A program made the position numbers and the translations under genes. The notes under the pieces are model-generated. The model saw only the letters and a list, made by a program, of their open reading frames with translations, did not search any database and had not been told where the DNA came from. DNA of 64,000 nucleotides from Planctomycetota bacterium (GTDB taxonomy: Bacteria > Planctomycetota > UBA1135 > GCA-002686595). Shown one piece after another: positions 2,713 through 13,989 of this stretch. Where the stretch lies: the NCBI GenBank assembly GCA_012960475.1, contig DUBE01000063.1, positions 1-64,000 on the forward strand, written 5' to 3'. Position 1 is the first letter of the stretch. Every line of letters begins with the position of its first letter.

Positions 2713-3780
2713 ATGATAGTTCAAGACATGATCCTTGCCCTGCCAAACCCGAGCGGTTTGGTTCTGGGGTTCACGCTGGCGGTTCTGACGGGTCTTTCCT
2801 TTCAATCCTGCGGAAGTGTCAAGCATCCCGACATCCAGCTTCTGGATGCTGCTGCTTTGATTGATACCACCCCCGAAGAACTCCAGCGCATTCTCGACCT
2901 GGGTGCCAATATCGAGGCCCGGAACAGCTATGGTTGGACTCCGCTGAATAACGCCATGGGCTGGACTCATTCCACGGACAAGATCCAGTTTCTTCTCGAC
3001 AAGGGTGCTGACATCGAGGCCAGAGACAATGGTGGCAATACCCCCCTGATACGCGCCGCAAGCAACTGGAGAGGATTCGCCACCGAGATCGTCGTGTTTC
3101 TCATCGAAAACGGTGCACAGATCGAGGCCAGGGACAACGACGGCAATACTCCGCTGATGATGGCCGCGCACGGCTATTCAACGCTCGAGATCGTCCAGTT
3201 TCTCATCGACAAGGGCGCCAACATCGAGGCTAGGAACAACGATGGCAATACCCCGCTGATGCTGGCGGCTCGTTACTCCTACATCAACAAAATCCAGCTT
3301 CTCATCGACAGCGGTGCAAAGATCGATGTCACGAATAACGACGGCTCGACCCCGCTCATGCTCGCCGCTCAGGGTCGCAGCATAGACAAGTTCGAGTTTT
3401 TCCTCGAAAAGGGCGCAAAGATCGATTCCAGGAACAACCACGGCTCGACCCCGCTGATGTTCGCGGCTCGCAACCCCTGGAGTCCCGAGATTGCCCAGTT
3501 CCTCCTCGACAAGGGGGCTGAGATCGATGCCACGAACAACGATGGCTGGACCGCGCTGATGTTCGCCGCGGACTTCTGTCCTCCCGACGGGTACATCGCC
3601 CAGATGCGGGTGGCCATCACCCCGGATCTCATCGTTCAACTTCTTCTTGAAAAAGGCGCCGATCCTCTGCTCCTGTCCAAGGCAGGCAAGAAAGCCATTG
3701 ACTATGCCGATAGTAATGTCAAGTTTTTAGACACATGGACCTACTGGAACCTCTATCGCAAGTCGGACGTGCACTATTAG
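2713..3780 (+). CDS. Ankyrin-repeat protein, probably exported
   Basis: 355 aa; at least 7 repeats of 'GA.IEARNNDGNTPLMLAA....EIVQFLIDK'; hydrophobic N-terminus. Exact start uncertain. Confidence 0.85.
   Translation: MIVQDMILALPNPSGLVLGFTLAVLTGLSFQSCGSVKHPDIQLLDAAALIDTTPEELQRILDLGANIEARNSYGWTPLNNAMGWTHSTDKIQFLLDKGADIEARDNGGNTPLIRAASNWRGFATEIVVFLIENGAQIEARDNDGNTPLMMAAHGYSTLEIVQFLIDKGANIEARNNDGNTPLMLAARYSYINKIQLLIDSGAKIDVTNNDGSTPLMLAAQGRSIDKFEFFLEKGAKIDSRNNHGSTPLMFAARNPWSPEIAQFLLDKGAEIDATNNDGWTALMFAADFCPPDGYIAQMRVAITPDLIVQLLLEKGADPLLLSKAGKKAIDYADSNVKFLDTWTYWNLYRKSDVHY
2890..3580 (+). repeat. Tandem ankyrin-encoding DNA repeats (unit about 100-110 bp)
   Basis: Recurring 'atcgaggccaggaacaacgatggcaataccccgctgatg' and 'ctcatcgacaagggcgc' blocks. 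Confidence 0.75.
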
Positions 3781-6839: not shown

Positions 6840-8237
6840 ATGGCCTTTTGGAAGCGCAGACAACCCAGCACCGAGACGGACCCGTCATCTGTCACGGATC
6901 CTGAACCCCTGGCCAGTGCGCGCTCGGCGGAGGAGATCAGCAGCGTCTTGCTCTTTTCGGGGGATGCGGGCAGGGACAGCAAGACCGTTGAGGTCCTGTT
7001 GGATGCCATCGCTCGGGTCTCGGCTTCCCGGGACCTGGATGAGTTGCTCGAATATGTGGTGGACACGGCTATTTCCACAACCGCGGCGGAGCGCGGCTTT
7101 CTGTTCCTGGCTGAGTTGCCCGGGGAACAGCCCGCCGTGCGCAAGGCCCGGGATGCCAAGGGGAGTCCATTGGACGAGGAGGAGCGCTGGTCCACGAGCA
7201 TCGTGGCCAAGGTGGTGAACTCCGGGGTCCCCCTGCACACCATGATCTCCGGTCAAGGGGACCTGGACCTGGGGCAGAGCATCATCGATCTCAAGCTGAG
7301 GGCAGTGATGTGTGTGCCCCTCGGTGTGCGCAGTACTGGGGATGAGGCGGATCGACAGGGGGCCTTGTATGTGGATTCTCGAGCTGCGAGCCGTGAGTTC
7401 ACGGACGGCGATCTGGCCGTCTTTCACGCCCTGGCCCAGCATGTTTCAATCGCGGTGGAGAACGCCCAACGCAATAGCGAGGCCCTGGAGAAGGCCCGCA
7501 TGGAAGAGTCCCTGGCCCTGGCCGCAGAAATCCAGAAGAGCCTGATTCCCAAAGACCTCAAGGTGGGCACTGGGTTTGATGCCTTCGGATGGTATCTGCC
7601 GGCTGAACACGCCACCGGCGATTTCTACGATGTGGCTCGGCTGTCCGACGGACGCAGTGTGTTGATGTTGGGAGACGCTACGGGACACGGCGTGGGCCCG
7701 GCCTTGCTTGTGGCTTCGGCCCAGGCGGCATTGCGCTCCTACTGCAAGATCTTGGATGATCCCGCGCGCATCGTGCAGATGGTGGATGAGGATCTTGCCG
7801 AACGTATGGATGCGGGTACCTTCTTGACCCTCTGCCTGGTGGTGGTGGGTGAGGACGGAAGTCTTGAATGCGTGGACGCCGGTCACGGTTGCACCCTGGT
7901 CTACCGCGCATCTGCGGATCGGGTGGAGGCCCTGACTTCGGACGGTCCGGCACTGGGGGTTGCTCCCGGTTTTGAACATGCCTCGCGCGCGGAAGCAAGT
8001 TTTGAGCCCGGCGACATACTGCTGCTCTTCAGTGATGGCATCAGTGAATCCGCCCACGAGGACGCGCCCAAGGCCCTGTTTGGGGAAGAGCGTATTGCAG
8101 AGGTGCTGCTCGAAGCTGGGCGCGCGGGGGAGGACTCAAAGGCACTCTGTGAGCGCTTGAGCGAGGCGGGACTGCAATTCAGCGGAGGTCGCCGGGATGA
8201 TGACTGGACCCTGTTGGCCTTGCGCCGAACGCCCTGA
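6840..8237 (+). CDS. GAF-domain SpoIIE-type PP2C serine phosphatase (RsbU-like)
   Basis: 465 aa; GAF-like region then 'MEESLALAAEIQKSLIPKDL...GDFYDVARLSDGRSVLMLGDATGHGVGPALL...DAGHGCTLVY...LLLFSDGISES'. Confidence 0.92.
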   Translation: MAFWKRRQPSTETDPSSVTDPEPLASARSAEEISSVLLFSGDAGRDSKTVEVLLDAIARVSASRDLDELLEYVVDTAISTTAAERGFLFLAELPGEQPAVRKARDAKGSPLDEEERWSTSIVAKVVNSGVPLHTMISGQGDLDLGQSIIDLKLRAVMCVPLGVRSTGDEADRQGALYVDSRAASREFTDGDLAVFHALAQHVSIAVENAQRNSEALEKARMEESLALAAEIQKSLIPKDLKVGTGFDAFGWYLPAEHATGDFYDVARLSDGRSVLMLGDATGHGVGPALLVASAQAALRSYCKILDDPARIVQMVDEDLAERMDAGTFLTLCLVVVGEDGSLECVDAGHGCTLVYRASADRVEALTSDGPALGVAPGFEHASRAEASFEPGDILLLFSDGISESAHEDAPKALFGEERIAEVLLEAGRAGEDSKALCERLSEAGLQFSGGRRDDDWTLLALRRTP

Positions 8238-9130
8238 TGGGGGCTGCTCCCAAGAAGCCCGTTCTGCCCGCGCCCCGGGTGAAGTTGCCGCGCGACTATG
8301 TGCGTCGCCTGGAGCGCCTTGTGTTGCAGTTGGCGGCCCAGGGTGAACGCCGGGAGGGCCTCGGGCAGGCGCATCTTCTGGGGGCCGGGGAAGAGTTCAT
8401 CGGACATCGACCCTATCGGGAAGGGGAGGACCTGCGGCGTTTGGACTGGGGCCTTCTGGCGCGCAGCGACCAGGCCTTTGTGCGTCGCACCCGCCGAGAG
8501 GCGGCGCCGGTCTGGTCCCTGTTGCTCGACACTTCGGCTTCTATGGGGATCGGCTCGCCGGGCAAATTGAGCCAGGGTGCGCAACTTGCCGGAGCGATCA
8601 TGGCCGCCGGGTTGCGCAGGGGCGTGCAGGTGCAATTGAAGAGTGGCCTCGGGCCTGCTTTCTCTCTGCGGCGCGGACAGTCCCTGGGCCTCTTGCTGAG
8701 TCATCTGGAATCTCTTGAGGCGGGAGGATCGAGCAGCGCCAGCCCCGAAGAGATGTTGGCGAGTTGGAGACCTGCCCGGGAAGTGGGACTGCTGGTGGTG
8801 ATCGGGGATTTTGTGGGCCTTGGACTTTCTGATCTCAAGCCCCATCAGCGTCCGGGTCGTCGCATGGTCTTGTTGCAGGTGCTGGCACCGGAGGAACTCG
8901 ATCCCGCTGCGCAGCTGGCAGGGGCCGCAGTGCATTGGTTTGATCCCGAAGGATCAGAAGAGCGCCCCGGGCGGGCGCCCGGAGAGGCAGCCTCGGTCTA
9001 TGAGCGACGCCTGGAATCCTGGCTTGAGGGTTGGGAGCGGGCCACTCGCAGCCGTGGCATTGGCTGGTCCGTGGGGGCCAGCGATATGCCCTTCGAAAAG
9101 CGCGTGGCCCTGGCACTGGAGGCGCGCTAG
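8237..9130 (+). CDS. DUF58 domain-containing protein
   Basis: 297 aa; 'GAGEEFIGHRPYREGEDLRRLDWGLLARSDQAFVRRTRREAAPVWSLLLDTSASM'. Start overlaps the upstream stop (TGATG). Confidence 0.9.
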   Translation: MGAAPKKPVLPAPRVKLPRDYVRRLERLVLQLAAQGERREGLGQAHLLGAGEEFIGHRPYREGEDLRRLDWGLLARSDQAFVRRTRREAAPVWSLLLDTSASMGIGSPGKLSQGAQLAGAIMAAGLRRGVQVQLKSGLGPAFSLRRGQSLGLLLSHLESLEAGGSSSASPEEMLASWRPAREVGLLVVIGDFVGLGLSDLKPHQRPGRRMVLLQVLAPEELDPAAQLAGAAVHWFDPEGSEERPGRAPGEAASVYERRLESWLEGWERATRSRGIGWSVGASDMPFEKRVALALEAR

Positions 9131-10333
9131 GTGCTGGTCTGGGAGCGTCCCCTGGCCCTCTGGTTGTTGGGCTTGCTGTTGATCGTCCTGCTGCGATCGC
9201 TGCAGCGTGGCGTTCCCGCGGGACGCCTGTTGGGAACCCTGCGCTTCTGGCCTGCGCGGGAAGTTGTTGGAGATGAGCATGAAAGGCAGGTGCCTCCCGC
9301 ACGTTGGGCTCTGCTGGCGGCCATGGGGTCCGCAGTTCTGGGGCTGGCCGGGCCCGTCTGGCAGCAGGCCTCTCCCCGGCCGGTCTGGCGCGTGATCGTG
9401 GATCGCAGTCCTTCCATGGCCCTGGCAACGGAGTCCGGCGGTTCCCGTTGGGGCCGGGCTCTGGAGGCTTTCGATGCTGCGCTGGATGCGCAGGTGGCGC
9501 GGGTTTTTGTCGCCGGGGACACACCCGAGTTGCAGCACGAAGGCCAGCGTCCCCCAGAGGGTTGGGCTTCCTTGACGTCCCGCCCGGAGCCGGACTGGCC
9601 TCGGTTCGATCGCGCGCAAACGGTCTGGCTCACCGATCGCCTGCCCACCCAGCCACCGGTGCACGCATGCGTGGTTGCTGGTGGCGGAGACCTGGTGCCT
9701 GGAGTTGTGGCCCGGGACAGCGAATGGGAATTGGTTTTTGATGGGGAGGCCGAGATCCTGCGGGCTGCAACCGGCGGCCCCCTTGGGGTGGAAGTTCGCG
9801 CACCCGCATCTTCCCAACTCGCGGCTTTGGCGCGTCTGTGGGCCGAGAACCGCGGCCATCGCTTGACCAGCGAGAGTCCCGCCCTGTTGGTGGACTTTGT
9901 TGGTGCCCAGGCAGACGGTGCTGAGGAATCACAGCGTGTGGCTCGTGACGGTTGGAGTCTGCATGGCAGCGTGGCTCCCTCTGCGGTCGGCCAACCTTGG
10001 GTTCTGGCCCAGCCAAGCGGCTGGCCTGCGGTTTCCTGGCAACCCGGACGGGTGGATGTGTTCTTGCTGGAAGAGGGTCTGCCCCAGGGGGATCTGGCCG
10101 GGCTGGCTCAGGCCTTTGGAGATCTTCTCGACCGTGCCGTTGCTCCCGGCCCGCAAACGATCAGTTCCGCTGAGCGAGCGGGGGCTGGGGCGGGAGGAGT
10201 GCTAGGAACCTTCGATGACTTGCGAGGGGAAGAGAGCAACTCGAACCAGCGCCTGCTCAAGGCTCTCTTCGCTGGGCTGGCCGGTTGCCTGGGGCTGCTG
10301 GCCTTGGCCTTGAGCCGTAAGGGAAGGCTCTGA
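9131..10333 (+). CDS. BatA/VWA-like membrane protein
   Basis: 400 aa, GTG start directly after the upstream TAG; N-terminal BatA-like 'LWLLGLLLIVLLRSLQRG', VWA MIDAS-like 'VDRSPSMAL', C-terminal TM helix. Confidence 0.75.
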   Translation: MLVWERPLALWLLGLLLIVLLRSLQRGVPAGRLLGTLRFWPAREVVGDEHERQVPPARWALLAAMGSAVLGLAGPVWQQASPRPVWRVIVDRSPSMALATESGGSRWGRALEAFDAALDAQVARVFVAGDTPELQHEGQRPPEGWASLTSRPEPDWPRFDRAQTVWLTDRLPTQPPVHACVVAGGGDLVPGVVARDSEWELVFDGEAEILRAATGGPLGVEVRAPASSQLAALARLWAENRGHRLTSESPALLVDFVGAQADGAEESQRVARDGWSLHGSVAPSAVGQPWVLAQPSGWPAVSWQPGRVDVFLLEEGLPQGDLAGLAQAFGDLLDRAVAPGPQTISSAERAGAGAGGVLGTFDDLRGEESNSNQRLLKALFAGLAGCLGLLALALSRKGRL

Positions 10334-10457: not shown

Positions 10458-11672
10458 ATGTTCAAAACAGCACCAGTAGTCCTGTCTTCTTTTCTCCTGG
10501 CCGCTTCGCTCGGCGCCAGCGCCCAGGACCATCCCCGTGAACAGGACCTGAGCGACTTGGAGGGCAAGCGGGCCCCGGCTCTTGCGGTTACTGGATGGCT
10601 CAACAGCAAGCCTCTCAACCTGGCGGATCTGAGGGGCAAGGTGGTGCTGATCGATTTTTGGGGAACCTGGTGAGGCCCTTGCCGAAGTGCCGTGCCGCAC
10701 CTCAAGGAGCTTCACTCTCAGTACAAGGATCAGGGACTGGTCTTGATCGGCGTTCATACCATGAAGGGCGGCAGCAAAGCCCAGGACTATGTCAAGGCCA
10801 AGGGCATCGACTATCCGATCTGCGTGGACTCCAGCGGCAGAACAGTGCGTGCTTTCCGGGCGGACTCGTTCCCGGATTACTACGTGATCGATCGCAATGG
10901 CGTACTGCGCTATGCGGACCTGGTGAATTCCCATGTGGACGATGTGGTCAAGAAGCTGTTGGCGGAACCGGTACCTGGGGGCACACCCCTCTCGCTTCTG
11001 CGGGCCATGGTTGCCAATCAGCCGGAGATCGCCTTTCAAGCGCGCATGGTGGAGGGGTCTGGGGGCATGGACCTGGACGCGGCTCTGCGCCAGACCTTCG
11101 GAGAAGATGAAGAGGGCCCCTGGTTGGAGGTGGAGTCGGTCATGGTTGATCGCAAGAAAGTACTGCCCGTCCGTCGCCATGTGGTGCGCATGCGCGCAGA
11201 CGAGGACCTGACTCTCATGCGCCATCGCATCTTTGTGGACGGCAAGCTGGCTACGGACCTGGTCCATGAAGAGGGCAAGCTCAAAGGCCGTTTGCAGGGG
11301 GAGACCGTGCTGCGCAATGTGCCCGCTGGGCTGACCCATGAGTCGGGGCTGCTCTATCATTCGCGTCTGTTCGCCTTGGGGGATCAACCCATCAAGAGCC
11401 TGACCGCGCTACTGAACAGTGGGCGAGTCTCGGGGAAGAGTGCCCATCTGGCGCGCTTGAAAGCAGACCCGGAGCGGCCCGGTGTAACCCGTATTTCCTG
11501 GGATTCAGGCCTTGGGGACGCAACGCGGATCCTGGACTTTGATGCCAAGGGGCGACTGCTGGGCATGACGAAGCTGGCAGTTTCCAAGCGCGTGGCGCCC
11601 CTGGAGATGGTGGCCCTGGAAGGGGAGGCAGCCAGTCAGGTGCTGAAGCGGCTCTTCTCGAACGAGCGCTAG
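10458..11672 (+). CDS. Candidate selenoprotein: secreted TlpA/thioredoxin-like protein with in-frame TGA at the first redox Cys (UGPC)
   Basis: ORFs 10458..10673 and 10692..11672 are in one frame (405 codons incl. stop). Signal peptide MFKTAPVVLSSFLLAASLGASAQ; 'LADLRGKVVLIDFWGTW-[TGA]-GPCRSAVPHLKELHSQYKDQGLVLIGVHT'. TGA at 10671-10673 is codon 72. Confidence 0.8.
10677..10707 (+). promoter_or_regulatory. Putative bacterial SECIS hairpin
   Basis: Lower stem CCTTG(10677-10681)/CAAGG(10703-10707); upper stem GTGC(10687-10690)/GCAC(10697-10700); 6-nt apical loop CGTGCC (10691-10696), G in the second loop position; loop starts 17 nt after TGA. Confidence 0.6.
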
Positions 11673-12774: not shown

Positions 12775-13989
12775 GTGCATGATGGCAGCCTGCTCCTGGA
12801 GGTGCACACTTTGGATTCCTTTACACCGACCCCCGCTGACCGCTTCACCTTTGGCCTCTGGACCGTGGGCAACCCCGGTCGAGACCCCTTTGGCCCCTCT
12901 GTGCGGGCCACTCAGAGTCCCAACCGTATCGTGGCCAAGTTGGCCGAGTGCGGCGCCTATGGGGTCAATTTGCACGATGAGGACCTGATTCCCTTCGGCT
13001 CCAGCGCTCAGGAGCGGGACCGCATCGTGGGGGAGTTCAAGGCGGCGCTCGAGGACAATGGCCTCAAGGTGCCCATGGCCACCACCAACCTCTTCAGTCA
13101 GCCGATCTTCAAGGATGGCGCGTTCACATCAAATGATCCCCGCGTGCGCGCTTTTGCCCTGCAGAAGACCATGCGCGCGATTGATCTGGGCGTCGAGCTG
13201 GGTGCCGGGATCTATGTGTTCTGGGGCGGGCGTGAGGGCACCGAGAGCGATGCCTGCCGCAGTCCGATTGAGGCCACCAAGCGCTTTCGGGGAGCGATCG
13301 ATTTTCTATGCGGCTATGTGCGCGATCAGGGCTATGACCTGCGTTTTGCCCTTGAGGCCAAGCCCAATGAGCCGCGCGGAGACATCTACCTGGCAACCAC
13401 CGGTCACATGTTGCACTTCATCTCGACCTTGGATGAGCCCGAGCGCGTGGGGGTCAATCCAGAGGTTGCCCATGAGACTATGGCCGGGCTTTCCTTTGTG
13501 CACAGCATCGCCCAGGCGATGGAAGCGGAGAAGCTCTTCCACATTGACTTGAACGGTCAGCGTATCGGGCGCTTTGACCAGGACCTGCGCTTTGGGTCCG
13601 AGGACTTGAAGCAGGCCTTCTTGACGGTTCGTTTGCTGGAGGGGGGTGTTGGGAATGCTCCTTACGAAGGGCCTCTGCACTTTGATGCCCATGCCTATCG
13701 CACAGAAGACGACGATGGGGTCTGGGAGTTCGCCGTGGGATGCATGCGCACCTACAAGATTCTGAAGAGCCGCGCGGTGGCTTTTGATGCGGACCCCGAT
13801 GTGCAGGAGATCATTCAGGCGCGCCGGGATGCGGCCCTCGACCCCCTCTTGGATGGGGGCTACAGCTCGGAGGCCGCCGCAGCGATCTCGGCGGCGACTA
13901 TTGATGTAACGGCCGTGGCTCAGGAAGGCTTGGGCTACGAGCGTCTGGATCAATTGCTGGTGGAACACCTGATGGGTGTGCGGGGCTGA
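12775..13989 (+). CDS. xylA: Xylose isomerase (short, class I/actinobacterial-like)
   Basis: '[23 protein letters not shown]...[14 protein letters not shown]...[13 protein letters not shown]...[13 protein letters not shown]...[23 protein letters not shown]...[28 protein letters not shown]'. Start ambiguous (GTG 12775 or GTG 12802). Confidence 0.95.

Follow-up and report, generated by a model that had tools for sequence, protein, structure and literature searches.

Prokaryotic selenoproteins have been catalogued in more than 110 families (PMC13188914). Table 1 of that catalogue includes a TlpA-like (cd02966) UxxC protein of the thiol-disulfide isomerase-like kind, which was first found in Sargasso Sea data as four metagenome sequences (PMC1088965). 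The catalogue also holds a Redoxin protein (PF08534) with a UxxC motif and a Prx-like thiol:disulfide oxidoreductase (PF00578) with UxxC or UxxU (PMC13188914), and there are precedents for thioredoxin-fold selenoproteins fused to unknown domains (PMC2398784). The gene described here, Sec-TlpA, is therefore of a known kind. It shares the TlpA-like thioredoxin fold and selenocysteine (Sec, U) as the first residue of UxxC with the cd02966 protein, the two being compared by motif and domain only, and it shares the Pfam domains and the UxxC motif with the PF08534 and PF00578 proteins. However, the report of the cd02966 protein makes no mention of a C-terminal fusion or of a second Sec domain (PMC1088965), and the PF08534 and PF00578 proteins are not described with the C-terminal domain of Sec-TlpA. 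The ResA/TlpA/CcmG (DsbE) proteins, for example ResA (PDB 1st9), have the same domain, predicted exported location and WxGPC active site, but they use Cys instead of Sec and are without the 230-residue C-terminal extension. The model NF041054 describes another Sec-containing ResA-like protein, with the motif WAxxUGC where the present one has UGPC.

Sec-TlpA lies in the window, the whole stretch of 64,000 nucleotides that was analysed. A reading made from the sequence alone had noted two open reading frames separated by nothing but a TGA. The segment does read as a single frame that closes with a TAG stop, and its sole interruption is the TGA at codon 72. With this TGA read as Sec, conceptual translation gives a product of 404 aa in which U stands where WCGPC has its first Cys (...VVLIDFWGTW-U-GPCRSAVPHLKEL...), as had been proposed. 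A recount of the stop-free stretch 3' of the TGA agrees with the 332 codons given earlier. The orthologues of Sec-TlpA also have a signal-like N-terminus, as judged by eye. When the window was scanned for further in-frame TGAs in a redox-like context, no other convincing candidate emerged. The coordinates of all features are collected in the table below.

Features of the Sec-TlpA gene and of related loci (C, contig of the same genome; L, extracted locus; numbers alone are positions in the window)
Feature	Position	Strand	Basis or detail
Sec-TlpA gene, TGA read through, 404 aa	10458-11672	+	translation, homologues, dN/dS
Predicted signal peptide, hydrophobic core then ASA/QD (slash, cleavage site)	10458-10526	+	inspection by eye; hydrophobic N-terminus in homologues
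TlpA/ResA-like thioredoxin-fold domain (Redoxin, AhpC-TSA)	10560-10973	+	Pfam, structure matches
In-frame TGA as putative Sec, residue 72, first residue of UGPC	10671-10673	+	translation, homologue column
TGC, resolving Cys75 of UGPC	10680-10682	+	translation, homologues
Predicted SECIS apical hairpin GUGC-CGUGCC-GCAC, loop 10691-10696	10687-10700	+	rules of PMC13188914
Extended stem around the apical hairpin	10671-10714	+	folding, MFE -18.0 kcal/mol for 10671-10718
C-terminal domain, fold unassigned, kept across the genus	10974-11669	+	Pfam/PDB searches, dN/dS
selB	C5:5128-7017		348 bits
selA	C66:3935-5272		447 bits
selD	C66:5443-6390		334 bits
tRNA-Sec	C66:9279-9372		73.7 bits (cut-off 47)
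DsbD of the window's genome, TGA in the gamma domain	L195:835-1188, TGA L195:1096-1098	-	G000, contig C43
Double-TGA sister family, WUGPC (TlpA) and WUxWC (Thioredoxin_7)	L104:1495-2802; L103, L105-L110, L114, L130-L139		
Thioredoxin_7 proteins with one TGA (UGWC), without TlpA part	L149, L153, L155, L156, L158, L159, L189		

The thioredoxin-like part of Sec-TlpA was matched by the Pfam Redoxin model (1.6e-20) and also by the AhpC-TSA model, and it contains the W-C/U-x-P-C active site of these domains. A profile of the genus family matches the structures of ResA, DipZ and DsbE. When TlpA, Trx7 and DsbD proteins were tested against NCBIfam, all model scores stayed below cut-off; Sec-TlpA scored 86.1 bits against ResA proper (NF002854, cut-off 170) and 47.9 against NF041054 (cut-off 300). 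On the strength of its sequence, the gene very probably encodes an exported (as predicted) thiol:disulfide oxidoreductase of the TlpA/ResA type, in which the nucleophilic Cys has been replaced by Sec.

A search for selA, selB, selD and tRNA-Sec had been suggested as a check, and all four were found in the genome to which the window belongs (3.83 Mb in 68 contigs, 90% complete). The tRNA was matched in 117 of the 121 genomes searched. The selD gene has an in-frame TGA of its own (AACAGUAAKMP), at a position for which both Sec and Cys are known in SelD. TGA also serves as a normal stop, both at two loci of the genus (L100 and L101) and in the DsbD gene of the window's genome, which excludes a global reassignment of this codon. 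These terminating TGAs also speak against the insertion of Trp or Cys at codon 72 by means of an altered genetic code or a suppressor tRNA. Such a tRNA would give a full-length protein as well, and the position is that of a redox Cys. We nevertheless consider this very unlikely, given the complete Sec machinery and the finding that the in-frame TGAs (TlpA, Trx7, DsbD and SelD) all fall on catalytic selenol/thiol positions, most of them followed by SECIS-type hairpins.

The recoded position is widely conserved. A homologue with exactly one TGA within the match was present in 19 of the 121 genomes, which comprise the window's own and its relatives, and searches across the order and the phylum gave further TGA homologues. 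For comparison, 32 TlpA-domain loci with a TGA were extracted, taken from the genus, from its family and order and from further families in the phylum; the TGA occupies the W-U-(G/S/P)-P-C codon in every one of them. TGA homologues came from the genome searches, and Cys homologues were retrieved with C in place of U in the query. The nearest named Cys homologues are mostly from Planctomycetota, which suggests this phylum for the window's genome, and they have Cys at the same codon, which completes the Cys/TGA column that had been put forward as a check. The Sec forms cluster on the tree, with three state changes against about 20 in shuffles, and the tree is compatible with a single origin of these forms. 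Those Cys homologues that were inspected have a frame that continues across the active site. This continuity argues against two separate products, an exported 71-aa peptide and a 326-aa protein starting at GTG 10692. Both ORFs are mechanically present, but the second begins within the thioredoxin fold and is without the active site, and the UGPC codons between the two are kept in frame in homologues; we assign this arrangement a negligible probability.

Recoding of codon 72 by Sec has also to be weighed against an error at a TGC or TGT codon, since the TGA is one base away from a Cys codon and the genome is a draft of 68 contigs. The same TGA was found in independent genomes, and the orthologues in five other genomes of the window's genus carry it, so resequencing is unlikely to give TGC or TGT. 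An error of sequencing or assembly is refuted by these independent assemblies, and next to no weight is left on it. A true nonsense mutation in a decaying gene is likewise most improbable. It would explain why a standard gene caller gives two ORFs, and among the homologues there are a TAG in the distant L173 and a change of the nucleophile to Ser in L113. Against it stand the TGA at one codon in 32 loci from many genera, which refutes decay as a general account, and the state of the genus orthologues, which have no stops besides the TGA. Close relatives that combine the TGA with other inactivating mutations had been named as a sign of a pseudogene; those examined keep the TGA and none has such mutations. 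Estimates of dN/dS among members of the genus are 0.04-0.17 for the part that precedes the TGA, 0.08-0.21 from the TGA to residue 172 and 0.13-0.24 for the C-terminal domain. Purifying selection is thus strong on both sides of the TGA (0.08-0.24 over the whole downstream part, in line with the protein-like sequence noted there), which is not expected of a gene that is read only to the TGA. The machinery, the conserved column and this selection together bear out the earlier preference for Sec decoding over decay.

The model for bacterial SECIS elements has a loop of 3-9 nt with a G at loop position 1 or 2, a stem of 4-16 bp, a distance of 16-37 nt after the UGA and an MFE <= -7.5 (PMC13188914). 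The window hairpin falls within these bounds, with 4 bp, a 6-nt loop (CGUGCC; G at position 2, then U) that lies 17 nt 3' of the UGA, and an MFE of -18.0. Taken alone, the apical stem of only 4 bp lends modest support (p=0.062 against synonymous recodings). Stems of 7 bp occur in relatives, GAGGUGC-CGUGCC-GCACCUC and GGGGUGC-CGUGCC-GCACCUC, with p of about 0.002-0.02. In the rule-based test a SECIS-type hairpin followed 27/32 TlpA TGAs, compared with 1/15 Cys homologues; the other five TlpA sites have no hairpin under these simple rules. Global folding of 48 nt at the TlpA sites gave weak z-scores (mean -0.65), and the rule-based test is the more telling of the two. Directly after the TGA, codon identity between L097 and L100 is 9/12, against 108/246 elsewhere. 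Compensatory changes were looked for in the TlpA hairpin and none were seen.

In the window's genus, about 230 residues lie C-terminal to the Sec-TlpA domain. No Pfam family matched this region above cut-off (DUF2283 at 0.1), the corresponding region of the relative L116 gave only DUF6134 at 0.049, also below cut-off, and none of the solved PDB chains matched. An AlphaFold2 model of the single C-terminal sequence had a pLDDT of 39.5 and was unusable. The region is distantly similar (20-23% identity) in two relatives outside the genus, L116 and L113. The domain had been called unrecognized and its fusion to a Sec-TlpA possibly undescribed. No library match contradicts this for the C-terminal part, whereas the TlpA-like UxxC part belongs to a kind already catalogued.

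In other genera, the C-terminal part consists of a degenerate thioredoxin-like stretch and a Thioredoxin_7 domain with a second in-frame TGA, mostly in the context GAPW-U-(S/G/P)-WC. Both TGAs lie inside one full-length match in ten genomes. The catalogued double-Sec form has UxxU in one motif, whereas this sister family has two Sec in two domains. In ten further genomes of the order the second domain was matched with one TGA and without the TlpA part; these proteins appear to represent this domain in free form, and L189, from one genome of the window's genus, is such a stand-alone Thioredoxin_7 form. Two fusions have lost the second Sec (WQDKC in L112 and FSGWS in L115). A SECIS-type hairpin follows the second-domain TGA in 23/23 cases. 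The hairpin, GCUCGAGG-AGUU-CCUCGGGC, is near-invariant and does show compensatory change: three of its pairs have changed on both sides, and 97.7% of cells are paired, a value as high being reached in 0/500 shuffles.

A single DsbD-type transmembrane protein of the window's genome scores above the Pfam cut-off (contig C43). In its C-terminal (gamma) thioredoxin domain the TGA falls on the first redox Cys, in the sequence NFTGFN-U-VNCR. A DsbD match was obtained in 104 of the 121 genomes and contains one TGA in 78 of these 104 (a table count). Thirty of the loci were fetched: the TGA is at the first redox Cys in 27, two have Cys there and one is without the motif. DsbD with Sec appears to be the rule in the order. 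DsbD with a TGA is also common in genomes where Sec-TlpA was not found, so the pairing of DsbD with TlpA rests on the known biochemistry of the families and not on co-occurrence.

We propose that SelB, together with Sec-tRNA-Sec, would decode the UGA. By analogy with the ResA, TlpA and DsbD families, Sec72 would attack substrate disulfides in the periplasm and Cys75 would resolve the mixed selenenylsulfide. Sec-TlpA would then be re-reduced by DsbD, in which the nucleophile of the gamma domain is also encoded by an in-frame TGA. Our guess is that the C-terminal domain binds a partner or substrate; possible substrates are apocytochrome c, a copper site or, more generally, disulfides in need of repair. 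A role of Sec-TlpA as a DsbD-fed reductase seems probable from this analysis. The recoded protein could instead be an oxidase/isomerase or a peroxide reductase, since the Redoxin and AhpC-TSA models both match and thioredoxin-fold selenoproteins have several redox roles. We regard this as unlikely, though with appreciable weight, because both the WxGPC motif of TlpA/ResA and the occurrence of DsbD in the genome point to the reducing branch. Beyond the DsbD-fed reductase itself, we tentatively suggest a periplasmic reducing pathway that operates on selenols across the order, a scheme for which we would put the chances at slightly under even. In it, Sec-DsbD would reduce Sec-TlpA proteins, some of which have two Sec in two thioredoxin-fold domains per chain, and in the window's genus a new accessory domain, fused to a Sec-TlpA, would determine the target.

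The Trx7/PDZ selenoprotein NF041199 and TsoB (NF045694, rhodanese/DsbD fusion-like) resemble the sister fusions and the DsbD described here in having Sec in a domain of the Thioredoxin_7 or DsbD-like type. They differ in architecture, and the scores obtained here, 22.7 and 77.4 respectively, are far below the cut-offs of 300 and 805. The DsbD or Trx7 forms may be related to TsoB and to the 'thiol:disulfide interchange protein' (PF13098, UxxC) of the catalogue. The published literature that was searched makes no mention of a Sec-TlpA with a C-terminal fusion of about 230 residues, of double-Sec proteins that join TlpA to Thioredoxin_7, or of a DsbD proper that contains Sec. As far as checked, the C-terminal fusion in the genus, the double-Sec TlpA/Thioredoxin_7 proteins and Sec in the DsbD gamma domain are new. 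Because gene callers split or miss Sec-TlpA, the annotation is probably wrong for a conserved redox enzyme that occurs in many genera. Sec-TlpA, Sec-Trx7, the double-Sec fusions, Sec-DsbD and Sec-SelD point to heavy use of selenium in the extracytoplasmic thiol chemistry of one lineage, and they make it possible to ask, in a form open to testing, why consecutive steps of a single electron relay use selenol in place of thiol.

Two of the homologues deserve separate mention. L173 (G218), a distant Sec-TlpA homologue, has a TAG besides the TGA in the match, possibly through decay or error. L113:1483-2652 (G048) has Ser at the Sec codon (WSKPC), yet the DsbD match in the same genome still contains a TGA. 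A missing tRNA-Sec match in G048 was considered as the cause of the Ser and dropped, given the DsbD TGA and a genome that is 72% complete. Next after the L113 gene comes a xylose-isomerase-like gene, which resembles the one at 12775-13989 in the window. Upstream of Sec-TlpA and on the same strand (6840-10333) are genes for a GAF/SpoIIE phosphatase, a DUF58 protein and an unrecognized 400-aa protein, which end 124 bp before its start. A 355-aa ankyrin-repeat protein is encoded at 2713-3780.
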